Virus record (IMG/VR): IMGVR_UViG_3300034198_021293
Location: 1-21,264 of that record
Reading direction: 5' to 3' (one strand)
Length of the DNA stretch: 21,264 nt
Origin: a virus
In this document: positions 1 to 10,341 of the stretch, piece by piece
Layout of the letters: every line of letters begins with the position of its first letter
How positions within the stretch are numbered: the first letter of the stretch is position 1
The notes under the pieces: model-generated
Told to the model about the DNA's origin: nothing
The model's input: the letters and a program-made list of their open reading frames with translations, nothing else
Databases searched by the model: none
Program-made: the position numbers and the translations under genes

Positions 1-362
1 AGTCTGAAACCGAATGTATAAGGAACAGGATTATATTGATATAATAATGAGTTTGGATTAGATGAAGTTTTTGATATTCTGTTGGTAGTAGGAAGCTTAC
101 GATCTTGATCATACTGCACGGCAGTCATTTCAAATGAAATAAACGGTAAGGTAACTGTAGCCGATGGACGATCTAAATCAGGATCTTGACCAACACGAGC
201 AAGCATCTTTTCTTTTGGAGCGTATGTTACTGGTACTTTAATTAACTGCTCTAAATGACCAGTTATAGGATTATATTTTGATATGAATATTTCATCAAAT
301 AGTGTACCAAAAAGAGATACGTATTTTCTTATTGTTTGAAAATAAAATTGTTGGTTAAACAT
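1..362 (-). CDS. 15: Tail sheath stabiliser / tail completion protein gp15 (T4-like), N-terminal part
   Basis: In T4, gp15 caps the tail tube and sheath and joins the tail to the neck. The frame starts at ATG 362-360, which overlaps the gene 14 stop codon (TAATG), and stays open to the window edge, giving about 120 residues. It begins MFNQQFYFQTIRKYVSLFGT and continues with LFDEIFISKYNP, LIKVPVTYAPKEKMLARV and SATVTLPFISFEMT. From memory this follows the pattern of T4 gp15: an N-terminal aromatic stretch, then a VPITYASKEH-like motif, then TxxLPxIxxxL. Position directly after gene 14 is the T4 order and supports the call. The C-terminal half lies outside the window. The 1-nt stop/start overlap suggests translational coupling to gene 14. 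Confidence 0.88.
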   Translation of the reverse strand, partial: MFNQQFYFQTIRKYVSLFGTLFDEIFISKYNPITGHLEQLIKVPVTYAPKEKMLARVGQDPDLDRPSATVTLPFISFEMTAVQYDQDRKLPTTNRISKTSSNPNSLLYQYNPVPYTFGFR

Positions 363-1084
363 TATATGGCACCCTCACTGAAAGGATCTGTTACTGTGAA
401 ATCAATAAATCCACTAGATTCTTTCATTGTAACATCATTTGCACCAGTACCAATAATCTTGCTAAGATTGTATTGTTCTTCAACAATAAAGTTACCATCT
501 TCATCAGCCAAGTAATAGCCATCTTCGTCTGTAATTGCATAGTCTAATATATTAGTGGTAAGTTTCGTTTGAATTATATCAATCTCAGGTATACCAGTAT
601 TAATTTGTTCGTTACCATATTCGAACAATTCGCAAACCAATTCCCAAGTTTGAAGAGCACCAAGCTGATAAAACATCTCAAACTTGTTAACAAACTTGAC
701 TTGGAAACATTTATTATTCAATGGAAAATAGATTAAATCGCCTTCGTTTGGTCTATGCTGTGCAGTATAAGAACCGACCTCATTATAAAATACACGTTGA
801 GCTATTGAAAATGTTACTTGATCTCTAATTTCAAGACCAAATTTAGACATAAAATTACCATCGCCACTAAATCCATCTACTGATTTAATGTATAATTCTA
901 CTAAAAAAGCTTTTGTATAAGAAGATTGATCATCTGCTGTATAAAGCGCATCAAAGTTACCTATGTTACGAGGCATGTAGTACATGTCTTCGCCATATAC
1001 GCGAATAGCCTCGATAATTAAATTTTCGAGGAGTAACTGTTCTTGCGAGCTTTTGAAATTGTTAAAGTAGAAATTGGTTGCGAT
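362..1084 (-). CDS. 14: Neck protein gp14 (T4-like), apparently with an ATC start codon
   Basis: gp14 is a head-completion neck protein that works with gp13 to connect the filled head to the tail. The first ATG in frame is at 985, but the frame stays open upstream for 33 more codons that read (I)ATNFYFNNFKSSQEQLLLE and then NLIIEAIRVYGED before MYYMPRNIG. As I recall the family, gp14 proteins begin MATNFYFN and continue with EQLLxxDLIIE and IYGxDxYYxPR. The extended reading therefore restores the conserved N-terminus (240 aa; T4 gp14 is about 256 aa). The codon in the Met position is ATC (1084-1082), placed 5 nt after a perfect AGGAGG. No ATG, GTG or TTG lies between the upstream in-frame TAG and that codon. 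Either initiation uses ATC, or the base is a sequencing error or a mutation. Starting at 985 would lose a conserved region and has no good ribosome binding site. Confidence 0.85.
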   Translation of the reverse strand: MATNFYFNNFKSSQEQLLLENLIIEAIRVYGEDMYYMPRNIGNFDALYTADDQSSYTKAFLVELYIKSVDGFSGDGNFMSKFGLEIRDQVTFSIAQRVFYNEVGSYTAQHRPNEGDLIYFPLNNKCFQVKFVNKFEMFYQLGALQTWELVCELFEYGNEQINTGIPEIDIIQTKLTTNILDYAITDEDGYYLADEDGNFIVEEQYNLSKIIGTGANDVTMKESSGFIDFTVTDPFSEGAI

Positions 1085-1089
1085 TTTAA

Positions 1090-1095
1090 CCTCCT
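1090..1095 (-). promoter_or_regulatory. Shine-Dalgarno AGGAGG of gene 14
   Basis: A full AGGAGG on the minus strand sits 5 nt before the ATC codon that aligns with the gp14 initiator Met. It lies in the 20-nt gap between the homing endonuclease stop and gene 14. Strength and spacing both point to the ATC, not the downstream ATG at 985, as the real initiation site. Confidence 0.75.
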
Positions 1096-1104
1096 ATTAA
1101 AAGG

Positions 1105-1785
1105 TTAATTACAAACAATTTTTTGTTTACATTTTTCATTGTGGTATCTTGCAACATTTCCTCTATTCCCGACAAAGTCGCAGTGTAAACATTTGATTTT
1201 CATATTATTTAGTTCTTTAAACTTTGTTGTTTCTCTTATTTGATTTTTGCGCTCTTCGGAATGTTTTTTACCTCTGTTAGCTGCTGCAGCCATAGCTAAC
1301 GCTTTAGAATTATCTTTGCCTGTATTTTTACCTTTATTAGAAACGCTCATTTTGGCTCTTACTTCTGGTCTAGAAGCGCCATTGTCTCTTTTTGCCAATC
1401 CAGCAAGATATTTTTCACGAACTTCTGGTCGATTCATAGCCTCTTTCGTTTTAATAGAAATTTTTTCAGATAATGTTTTGGCTTTTTTTACATCAGCTGA
1501 CCAATGACTGAAATGGTGATTATGTAAATTATAATATCTTTTACCTAATTCTTCAGATTTAATCATAGATAACCATTTATATTCTTCTTGAAGTAAAAGT
1601 TTTTTATCATCATAAATTCTTGATAATATTTTTCTTTTAAAATCTTTTGGTCTTCTATTATAAGCAGATTTCATATTAGTTGAAGAACAAATATAACCAT
1701 CTGATTCAAATCCCCAATGACAACCTACATAATATCTTTTATGTTTGCGATCGTACCAAAGATAAACAAATCCGTATTTTTCCAT
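1105..1785 (-). CDS. GIY-YIG homing endonuclease with NUMOD3-like repeats and a C-terminal zinc finger
   Basis: Free-standing homing endonucleases of this type cut DNA of related phages that lack the gene and so spread themselves. The 226-aa protein begins with a GIY-YIG variant: GFVYLWYD (5-12), then YYVG (18-21). It continues with KDFKRKILSRI (48-57), an acidic LQEEYKWL segment (65-72) holding the expected catalytic Glu, and YYNLHN (84-89). Residues about 105-190 carry basic NUMOD3-like DNA-binding segments: RPEVREKYLAGLAKR, RPEVRAKMSVSNKGK and NRGKKHSEERKNQIR. C199, C202, H215 and C219 form a CxxC-12-HxxxC zinc finger. The start has AGGAG 6 nt upstream and a late promoter at 1810-1817. The gene separates 13 from 14, which are adjacent in T4, so it is an insertion. 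It is related in kind to the T4 seg genes, but I cannot assign a specific one. Confidence 0.9.
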   Translation of the reverse strand: MEKYGFVYLWYDRKHKRYYVGCHWGFESDGYICSSTNMKSAYNRRPKDFKRKILSRIYDDKKLLLQEEYKWLSMIKSEELGKRYYNLHNHHFSHWSADVKKAKTLSEKISIKTKEAMNRPEVREKYLAGLAKRDNGASRPEVRAKMSVSNKGKNTGKDNSKALAMAAAANRGKKHSEERKNQIRETTKFKELNNMKIKCLHCDFVGNRGNVARYHNEKCKQKIVCN

Positions 1786-1829: not shown

Positions 1830-2570
1830 TCAGCCGATCATATCTGTCACAGGTAATGAATAACTAGAAATCATCTCCTGTTCCATAGCTGCTCTTTCTG
1901 CTCTTGCTTCATCATATATTTGTTGACCATTAAAGGTAATCCCTCCTGGAAGTTGCATACCATTAAATTTTTTCAAATTATTTCCCCACTGTTCTTTAAT
2001 TAAGACAGTAGCATAATTTTGTAGCCAACGCTCGTTGTAACCTCTCATATATTCTTCAGGATCGATAACTTGATATGCCTCAAGAATCAAATAGTTTCCT
2101 TCTTGAATAATTGTCCAGTCCATATCGATATAACATTTGTTTACAATTCTGTTATAACGAATAGGTTGTTTACCAACTAAAAACTGTTCAAGGAATTGGA
2201 TATGAGAAAGTGCCATATAATAAGGCACCATCGAAACAGAAGTCAAAGTATAAAGATCGTTAAGAGCAATCTGATAACGGATATTAAAAAGGTTGTTGGT
2301 GTTTAGTGCCTGTCCGACTTCGAATAAATTAACTACACCTATGATATTGTCTGGGAGAGTAATATATTTGTTGTTTATATCAGTTTGAGTAACAGCATGT
2401 TTGTAATATACTTTTTCAGCACCATCAAAATGATAGTCCCAATAATAACGAATAGCCTCTGTTATACGATCTTCTACCTGATCGTCATCAACATTGATTT
2501 CGATAACTGGCTTTCCCAGCTTACGGAGGCAGTATTCTTTAAATCCGTCTCTTGAAGTTATGACCGACAT
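1830..2570 (-). CDS. 13: Neck protein gp13 (T4-like head completion)
   Basis: gp13 is the T4 head-completion protein that seals the portal side of the filled head together with gp14. The 246-aa product shows stretches I recognise from T4-like marine phage gp13: SRDGFKEYCLRKLGKPVIEI, VDDDQVEDRITEAIRYYWDY, NTNNLFNIRYQIALNDLY, and the terminal MISSYSLPVTDMIG. T4 gp13 is longer (about 309 aa); the shorter form is usual in marine relatives as I remember them. The start has AGGA about 8 nt upstream and a late promoter at 2591-2598. Genes 14 and 15 follow, interrupted only by the endonuclease gene. Confidence 0.92.
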   Translation of the reverse strand: MSVITSRDGFKEYCLRKLGKPVIEINVDDDQVEDRITEAIRYYWDYHFDGAEKVYYKHAVTQTDINNKYITLPDNIIGVVNLFEVGQALNTNNLFNIRYQIALNDLYTLTSVSMVPYYMALSHIQFLEQFLVGKQPIRYNRIVNKCYIDMDWTIIQEGNYLILEAYQVIDPEEYMRGYNERWLQNYATVLIKEQWGNNLKKFNGMQLPGGITFNGQQIYDEARAERAAMEQEMISSYSLPVTDMIG

Positions 2571-2589: not shown

Positions 2590-4161
2590 TTATTTATAAT
2601 AAGAGGAATGCATACCTGCAATTAAAGCATAATTGTAGTTTTGGCGACCGTTATTTTCAAGTTTTATCTTCTCATAATGATGGATATCAAATCTAAGAAG
2701 ATCAGAAAGCTGCATATTAGAACGGTGTTTTTCGTAAAAATTACCGCCAACCGAATTTTGATTGACATCATTTGGCCAAATTACGGCTATCCATCTAGTG
2801 CAATAAACTAGCTCTTCCAAAGCATCTATAGCTTCGCTGAGTTTCATGTGTTCTAAAACGTCTATGCACAAAGCCAAGTCATAAATTGTATCATTATACT
2901 TGATTACTTCATCGAAAGTAGCATGAAAAACCTGATTGTAATTTTTTTCTAAATTAAATTCTTTGATATAATTTTGTGTCGGTTCTATTGCTGCAACAAA
3001 AACAGAAGGATATTTTTCTTTAATCATTCTACCGTAATTGCCAGAACCAGCTCCAATGTCTAAAATATGAGAAGGATTCATTTTTTCCAAATCTCTCATA
3101 AGAACATCATCAAATTTACCTACAGATCCAGGCATTTTTTTTATCTCCTCAACTACTTCTTCACTATTTCCGATTTTTGTACCCCATGGAGTTTCTTTAG
3201 GAATTTCTCTTTCTTCTATAGGTACAGTTATAATAGAATATGTTTTTGCTCTCTCATCAAGTGTTTGGTTAATATAATCTACGCCAGAATAATCATAAAA
3301 TTTTTGAAGTTGTTCATTACTTACTGACTTTAAATATTTGTTCCAATAAATGTAAGATTTGTTTACGCCCTCAGCATAATCTTGTTCTGATATTATAGGT
3401 TCAAACCACACCTTTGTTACATAATCATTTGAACCATTAAAATGATATGATGTTATTTCTCTAGGGTGATAGATGTGATACCCAGCTAGAAAAGAAGACA
3501 GTACCATTTTTTGTTCTTCGCCAGAAAAATACATTCTACCATCTGGACCAACATCATAAACCCAATCTGTGTGAGTAAAAAAGTTACCAGCACAAATATG
3601 AATAGCAGGCATAACATCATTCGTACCCTCAACTAAATCACCATGAGCACCAAGTAAATTTAAATTTTTATCATAATCAAAATATTTTACTACAGATGTT
3701 TTTGGTGTAGGATGAGTATGTAAAACTATATTGTCATTTATAATTTCAAAATTTTTACAGGCAGAACTGATAATTATTTTATTTGTGCCACCATGTTTTT
3801 CGCTTGCTATTTTAAAATCTTCAATTAATTTCTCGTCCCAGTTTTGATCAAACTGCATATGAGAATCTATTTGATAGAAATAATCTTCATCTTTTACTTG
3901 TAAAGCATTATTATACCTAGCCCAACCAACACCCATAGTAAATTTGGGATCGATTCTTTTATATCTAATGTCCATTCTTTTAAGTAAATCAGGAGCTTTT
4001 ACTTCAAGACTGTTTTCTAAAGCTGTTTGTTCAAACACCCCAACAAATATTTGTGTATTTGCAGATTTGGTATCATATAAATTACGGATTGTTTTTTCTA
4101 AAAGAGGATCTCTATAAGAAACAACACTAACAAATATCTTATCCATTTTCGTTTTTATCAT
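2590..4161 (-). CDS. GT60-like GlcNAc-transferase fused to a SAM-dependent methyltransferase
   Basis: The 523-aa protein has two enzyme domains. Residues about 8-300 resemble the GT60 / Skp1-hydroxyproline GlcNAc-transferase family (Pfam GlcNAc). Visible motifs are IFVSVVSYRDPLL (9-21), FVGVFEQ (39-45), MGVGWARYNNAL (76-87), YFYQIDSHMQFDQNWDEKLI (94-113, with a DxH metal-site-like motif), HICAGNFF (188-195) and MYFSGEEQKMV (210-220). Residues about 355-520 form a class I methyltransferase: motif I DIGAGSGNYG (368-377), acidic IEP (392-394) and IDVLEHM (433-439). Known GT60 enzymes add GlcNAc to hydroxyproline in Skp1; the phage substrate is unknown. The gene overlaps the preceding one by 23 nt from the first Met; a start at Met6 (4146) cuts this to 8 nt, and neither has a strong ribosome binding site. 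It belongs to the cassette with the hydroxylase at 5596-6177. The methyltransferase could modify the added sugar, but that is inference. Confidence 0.82.
   Translation of the reverse strand: MIKTKMDKIFVSVVSYRDPLLEKTIRNLYDTKSANTQIFVGVFEQTALENSLEVKAPDLLKRMDIRYKRIDPKFTMGVGWARYNNALQVKDEDYFYQIDSHMQFDQNWDEKLIEDFKIASEKHGGTNKIIISSACKNFEIINDNIVLHTHPTPKTSVVKYFDYDKNLNLLGAHGDLVEGTNDVMPAIHICAGNFFTHTDWVYDVGPDGRMYFSGEEQKMVLSSFLAGYHIYHPREITSYHFNGSNDYVTKVWFEPIISEQDYAEGVNKSYIYWNKYLKSVSNEQLQKFYDYSGVDYINQTLDERAKTYSIITVPIEEREIPKETPWGTKIGNSEEVVEEIKKMPGSVGKFDDVLMRDLEKMNPSHILDIGAGSGNYGRMIKEKYPSVFVAAIEPTQNYIKEFNLEKNYNQVFHATFDEVIKYNDTIYDLALCIDVLEHMKLSEAIDALEELVYCTRWIAVIWPNDVNQNSVGGNFYEKHRSNMQLSDLLRFDIHHYEKIKLENNGRQNYNYALIAGMHSSYYK
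2591..2598 (-). promoter_or_regulatory. T4-type late promoter (TATAAATA) before gene 13
   Basis: An exact minus-strand TATAAATA lies 20 nt before the gene 13 ATG. It overlaps the last codons and TAA stop of the upstream glycosyltransferase gene (the Tyr-Lys-stop codons supply the octamer). It would start a late transcript for the neck genes independently of the upstream modification cassette. Confidence 0.7.
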
Positions 4162-9961: not shown

Positions 9962-9990
9962 TATATTGTAAAAGAAAAATGGAGTATGTT

Positions 9991-10341
9991 ATGATTGTCG
10001 ACAAGGGATGGGGTAAAGAAACTGTATTTGCTACTAACGAGTTATATGCTGGTAAGTTTTTAGAGTTTGCAAAGTCTGGTAGTAGAACCAGCATGCAGTT
10101 CCACAAAGATAAAGATAAAACTTTGGTGGTTATTGAGGGTGCATTTAAACTAACTCTGATTAAAACAGAAAATGCATCGTATGAAGAAACTATATTACGC
10201 AAAGGAGATGTTTTCAGAATATCTCCACTATTGCCACATCAGCTAGAGTCTCTTGAAGAAAATTCAACTATCATTGAAGTTTCTACTGCAGATAATGTAT
10301 ATGATACTTATCGAGTTATTCCTGGAGATTCACAGTTATAA
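9991..10341 (+). CDS. Small cupin protein (sugar isomerase-like), plus strand
   Basis: The 116-aa single-domain protein has the conserved cupin course: KGWGKETVF near the N-terminus, motif 1 region SRTSMQFHKDKDKTLVVIEG and motif 2 region GDVFRISPLLPHQLES, ending TYRVIPGDSQL. It resembles mannose-6-phosphate isomerase-like and sugar-nucleotide cupins. Motif 1 keeps QxH, as in phosphomannose isomerases, but the usual Glu is Lys or Thr; motif 2 keeps its His. The metal site may therefore be weakened and catalysis is uncertain. ATG 9991 was chosen over 9979 because GGAG lies 6 nt before it; 9979 lacks one and is only about 18 nt past the -10 box. The gene is the only one on this strand, has its own promoter, and abuts the convergent stop at 10342 with no gap. 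A role in sugar metabolism for surface or virion glycans is inference. Confidence 0.82.
   Translation: MIVDKGWGKETVFATNELYAGKFLEFAKSGSRTSMQFHKDKDKTLVVIEGAFKLTLIKTENASYEETILRKGDVFRISPLLPHQLESLEENSTIIEVSTADNVYDTYRVIPGDSQL

Follow-up and report, generated by a model that had tools for sequence, protein, structure and literature searches.

An ATC start codon behind a strong Shine–Dalgarno sequence in neck gene 14 of a T4-like phage, and its counterparts in related phages

How is a gene for an essential virion protein translated when the codon at its conserved first position reads ATC? The question was raised by gene 14 of a viral DNA stretch of 21,264 nt (IMG/VR record IMGVR_UViG_3300034198_021293, positions 1 to 21,264; hereafter the window), in which a T4-like neck protein (head closure Hc2) of 240 residues, counted from the ATC, is encoded on the minus strand at positions 362–1084. 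The protein matched the profile of the T4 neck protein (PF11649, E = 3.2e-35, residues 4–184) and the PHROG family ‘head closure Hc2’ (E = 8e-63), and solved T4-type gp14 chains matched its residues 6–167. The location of the gene is also that expected of T4 neck protein gp14, between gene 13 (neck protein, head–tail adaptor Ad2; 1830–2570, minus strand) and gene 15 (tail sheath stabiliser; 3–362, minus strand), which is cut by the window end and whose ATG overlaps the gene 14 stop. Genes 13 and 14 are separated by a free-standing homing endonuclease gene (GIY-YIG-like with NUMOD3; 1105–1785, minus strand), the stop codon of which lies 20 nt ahead of the ATC. The endonuclease matched phrog_314 (E = 4.9e-21), occupies an intergenic site between conserved genes and is missing from close relatives, in which genes 13 and 14 abut; in Pfam, NUMOD3 alone scored above threshold, and the GFVY..YYVG motif was recognised by eye. 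A megablast search of the window against phages returned nothing close. Two further open reading frames (ORFs) were noted by eye: a long one at 2590–4161 (minus strand), between gene 13 and tail-fibre-like genes, with the look of a glycosyltransferase-type and a methyltransferase-type domain, and a plus-strand one at 9979–10341, encoding a cupin-like protein of 120 residues amid minus-strand tail-fibre-like genes.

In the gp14 frame, the minus strand reads TAA TAG (1099–1094) GAG GTT AAA ATC (1084–1082) GCA ACC AAT TTC TAC. The two stops (1094–1099) shut the frame upstream, and GAG, GTT and AAA are the sole codons separating them from the ATC. A Shine–Dalgarno (SD) sequence AGGAGG (1090–1095), with a duplex energy of about −10.9 kcal/mol against the canonical anti-SD (assumed, and possibly not that of the host), is followed by the 5-nt spacer TTAAA (1085–1089) and the ATC (1082–1084), which the initiator tRNA would be expected to read as fMet. 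This codon aligns with the ATG, GTG or ATH (ATC, ATA or ATT in the place of the conserved Met codon) of relatives, and the gp14 proteins of relatives align residue by residue beginning at the ATH position; the 5-nt spacing behind AGGAGG or GGGAGG was also found in 18 ATH sequences. The earliest in-frame ATG, GTG or TTG of gene 14 is the ATG at 985, which is 33 codons past the ATC and well within the conserved region. An earlier note on the window had described an ATC 5 nt behind a perfect SD, with no standard start ahead of it, and had called such a start in an essential gene very unusual. All of this held up: the observation was exact, and it was confirmed that gene 14 reads ATC, not ATG, at its conserved start position.

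Relatives were collected by a protein similarity search of IMG/VR together with DNA-pattern searches, which yielded 199 distinct gp14 start regions. The Met position was occupied by ATG in 127, ATC in 31, ATA in 6, ATT in 5, GTG in 15 and TTG in 10; three were frameshifted, and the two remaining odd rows were poor alignments. ATH was thus present in 42 of the 199 sequences, which came from many metagenomes. Since ATH recurs in independent assemblies and metagenomes, the assembly error that the earlier note had allowed for was rejected. The cultured relatives (DLP6, phiM12, RHph_I1_18, OC, Melnitz, Mosig, P-TIM40 and others) have ATG where the position could be read. A phage tRNA reading AUC as a start was considered and set aside, as neither the window nor 15 loci from ATH contigs contained a tRNA gene. 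A scan of the fetched loci, most of which span the gp14 region only, revealed no other gene combining a strong SD with ATH.

The ratio of nonsynonymous to synonymous polymorphism (pN/pS) over codons 2–33 in ATH phages was 0.046 for the 15 sequences of clade B and 0.19 for the group of the window, compared with 0.20 in ATG relatives, although these ratios are rough because synonymous differences are near saturation. Purifying selection on codons 2–33 in ATH phages argues that the gp14 N-terminus is translated, and an untranslated stretch would not be expected to give such ratios. The internal start at 985, which had been named as the alternative, is therefore unlikely, as these codons are strongly conserved.

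Natural pairs of closely related phages were also compared. The gp14 genes of L110 and L046 differ at 8 of 720 bases (99% identical DNA), all of them third codon positions, namely the start codon and seven synonymous sites; L110 has ATC with GGGAGG and an endonuclease, whereas L046 has ATG with neither an SD nor an endonuclease. In L065 the start region reads GAGAAT-CAGGAGGCT-AAA-ATC, and in L085 and L086 those 9 nt with the SD are missing and the sequence continues AAA-ATG; all three carry the same endonuclease and a second ORF upstream. Recombination within the first ~25 gp14 codons was observed in L085 and L086 relative to L065; these two also lack the SD and have ATG where L065 has ATC. 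The suggestion that ATG in relatives would expose an error at this position thus met a mixed outcome: such relatives exist among those with a weak SD, whereas those with a strong SD have ATH, and the two states meet in the 99%-identical pair.

The relation between SD strength and start codon was then quantified, with a strong SD defined as a duplex energy of ≤ −6 kcal/mol against the canonical anti-SD, which is assumed and may not be that of the host. A strong SD preceded 41 of 42 ATH starts and 9 of 127 ATG starts. Because some searches had required an SD, the test was redone on loci for which protein similarity, blind to both start and SD, was the sole search criterion; here a strong SD was present in all 9 ATH loci and in 4 of 96 ATG loci (Fisher p = 2e-10). 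On a tree of 193 gp14 bodies, built with the first 12 residues excluded, the start class required 21 changes, at least 11 of them on well-supported branches. Among 11 phylogenetically independent pairs, the SD accompanied ATH in an average of 10.8 and opposed it in an average of 0.0 (p about 0.001), but start regions recombine (L065/L086, L002/L062), and these ‘independent’ events may therefore represent fewer origins plus transfers. The SD strings also vary by group (AGGAGG, AAGGGG, GAGGAG and AGGT), which argues against a single copied cassette. Some sequences (L271, L181, L274 and L278) do combine ATG with a strong SD. A TTG-start group (L240, L246, L250, L253, L266 and others), located directly after gene 13, is almost without an SD (gatcggataagatcTTG); it runs opposite to the rule linking SD and ATH and presumably depends on coupling.

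In the window and its nearest relatives, the first impression was that ATH accompanies the endonuclease. The earlier note had likewise suggested a G-to-C change next to the insertion, which the wider survey did not support. Clade B, found by an ATH search with no SD requirement, has gene 14 within about 15 nt of gene 13, no insert, and ATC or ATA (for example, gattggttAAGGGGtaacaaaATC). Endonuclease junctions with a strong SD comprised 17 ATH, 3 frameshift and 2 GTG alleles compared with 3 ATG, and those with a weak SD included no ATH among 26 and 20 ATG. Where genes 13 and 14 abut, a strong SD was found with 16 ATH and 4 ATG starts, and a weak SD with no ATH and 98 standard starts. The endonuclease is therefore not the cause of ATH, as 16 insert-free abutting junctions use it and 20 weak-SD endonuclease junctions keep ATG. 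On these sequences, SD strength is the predictor of ATH in every junction type. L163 and L026/L164 have only short spacers at the 13/14 junction, possibly traces left by an insert since lost. In other relatives (L028, L045, L073, L064 and others), non-endonuclease ORFs lie between genes 13 and 14, for example those of proteins starting MLTYKQFLYE or MKSFQQFI; this variety of ORFs indicates that the junction is a recurrent insertion site. RNA splicing that would restore an ATG was considered as well; directly behind gene 13 and ahead of the insert, the window has no ATG (the TGA stop runs on into AATATTTAC), and no matching junction was seen.

The three frameshifted sequences (7 contigs, two types: L002 [2020–2100], L310, L311 and L312–L315) all bear an endonuclease and combine GGGAGG with ATG and one extra base. 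They read ATG TCT ACA AAC TTT TTT C TTC AAT or ATG TCG ACT AAT TTC TAC TTT C AAT AAT, and read straight they reach a stop after 7–8 residues. If tRNA-Phe slipped by +1 from TTT to TTC, the product would be exactly MSTNFFFNN or MSTNFYFNN, the conserved gp14 start. These alleles are thus candidates for a programmed +1 frameshift at codons 6–7 of a structural gene.

We favour, at a probability of roughly 0.6, the reading that translation of gene 14 begins at the ATC (1084–1082) and that this is a compensated, modest site, in which a strong SD is multiplied by a weak AUH start. The 30S subunit would dock on the strong AGGAGG, and the initiator tRNA would read AUC with a third-position mismatch, so that gp14 would still begin fMet-Ala-Thr-Asn. 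Judged from the majority state and the cultured relatives, the ancestral gene 14 probably began with ATG right at the end of gene 13, preceded by hardly any SD, and received ribosomes that had just translated gene 13. Several lineages, some with an endonuclease and some lacking one, would then have exchanged this coupled start for an independent one composed of a strong SD and a weak start, the product of the two being held moderate and the output of gp14 modest. In T4, gp14 is needed as one small ring per virion. Among the start regions compared here, a strong SD together with AUG is rare (9/127). We infer that gp14 levels are alike under both arrangements and that dosage is the reason. By analogy with infC and sigR, initiation of gene 14 would be sensitive to IF3. 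In addition, a predicted RNA hairpin, UUAACCUUUU-AAU-AGGAGGUUAA (1086–1108, minus strand), pairs the gene 14 SD, with z-scores in the window of −2.5 (43 nt) and −3.6 (64 nt); SD-pairing stems, related or of different sequence, were found in L093, L098, L172 and L176. This predicted hairpin may further limit initiation of gene 14 and, in the window and some relatives, would form an extra layer outside the compensation model.

Compensation alone does not account for the repeated loss of AUG, which is the best start and one mutation from restoration. The leading rival, in our view an unlikely one, explains this loss by escape from the endonuclease: the enzyme would recognise the gene 14 start, and phages carrying or resisting it would swap ATG for ATH or GTG or shift the spacing by one base while the protein is kept, a strong SD (and +1 slippage) repairing translation. 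No synonymous codon exists for ATG, which would leave ATH, GTG or a 1-base insertion as the protein-keeping ways out; the protein can stay the same with either ATH or the 1-nt insertions. Junctions with type-1 endonucleases (those sharing at least 60% identity with the enzyme of the window) often carry ATH, GTG or frameshift alleles, and conserved codons are a frequent location of homing endonuclease sites (PMC2988022). However, 20 weak-SD endonuclease junctions keep ATG, among them L085/L086 and L100 (endonucleases 82% and 65% identical, respectively), and 16 abutting junctions have ATH with no endonuclease. L085/L086, L100 and clade B therefore do not fit, unless they are resistant relics or face enzymes of other specificity. 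In a wider version, to which we give somewhat less credence, the start codon would be a battleground in which endonucleases target a synonym-less codon and phages escape via AUH or via a 1-base insertion with slippage at TTT-C, each rescued by the SD, so that mobile-element pressure would repeatedly have rewired the initiation of an essential virion gene.

Improbable, too, is a neutral history in which an SD with ATH arose once, was merely tolerated and spread with flanking DNA by recombination and homing. The block AGGAGG-YTAA-M-ATH is common to many different inserts, and flanks do move between distant gp14 bodies (L002/L062, L170/L180), but the third base of the start in this block varies among A, C and T, with no G seen, clades B and C have other SD strings, and loss of the SD accompanies ATG in L065/L086. 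More doubtful again is the proposal that AUH is retained so that IF3, or its fall late in infection, controls the timing of gp14. The ATT/ATC of infC and the GTC of sigR are repressed by IF3, which sets protein ratios (PMC5472188), and the SD-pairing hairpin predicted in the window and some relatives would suit such control; against it, there is no known reason for a neck protein to sense IF3, and many related phages have a plain ATG. An assembly or sequencing error, or a pseudogene, with the true start an ATG or at 985, is very improbable given the same kind of start in independent assemblies, the purifying selection on codons 2–33 and the 99%-identical L110/L046 pair.

An internal AUU start has been reported in T4 gene 26, and to our knowledge AUH starts are generally regarded as almost restricted to infC and a handful of further genes. 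Our favoured reading, a strong SD compensating for a weak start, has a counterpart in bacteria, where weaker GUG and UUG starts go with stronger SDs (PMC5622118). In that survey, one of 61,358 ancestral AUG starts became AUU (PMC5622118), whereas for gene 14 alone the tree supports at least 11 switches into or out of AUH. The infC gene (encoding IF3), with AUU in E. coli and AUC in Streptomyces, is a well-characterised noncanonical start (PMC5472188). Gene 14 resembles it as an essential gene with AUH at a conserved N-terminus and no in-frame standard start; however, infC is autoregulated by its own product, whereas gp14 is a virion structural protein and its AUH start is on or off among close relatives. 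In sigR of Streptomyces, a GTC start holds the protein low relative to its partner (PMC5472188), which differs from gene 14 in codon, in concerning a cellular regulator and in having no link to SD gain or loss. Free-standing Seg-type endonucleases of T4 lie, like that of the window, in intergenic positions beside an essential gene, and such inserts can provide the gene behind them with expression signals; the cases in the cited sections of that account concern promoters, mRNA processing and translation of the endonuclease itself, and none involves a neighbour with a non-AUG start (PMC2988022).

A search of freely accessible literature found no precedent for AUC, AUU or AUA as the start of a phage gene or next to a homing endonuclease; this is weak evidence of novelty. 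AUH starts are off by default in gene finders, and annotations may misplace the start of gp14 and perhaps of other phage genes. In this one essential phage gene, AUH is found in dozens of sequences and is gained and lost in step with the SD, which provides a natural series for gauging how SD strength buys back a poor start codon. The near-isogenic pairs, in turn, let one ask whether mobile endonucleases reshape the translation of their neighbours.
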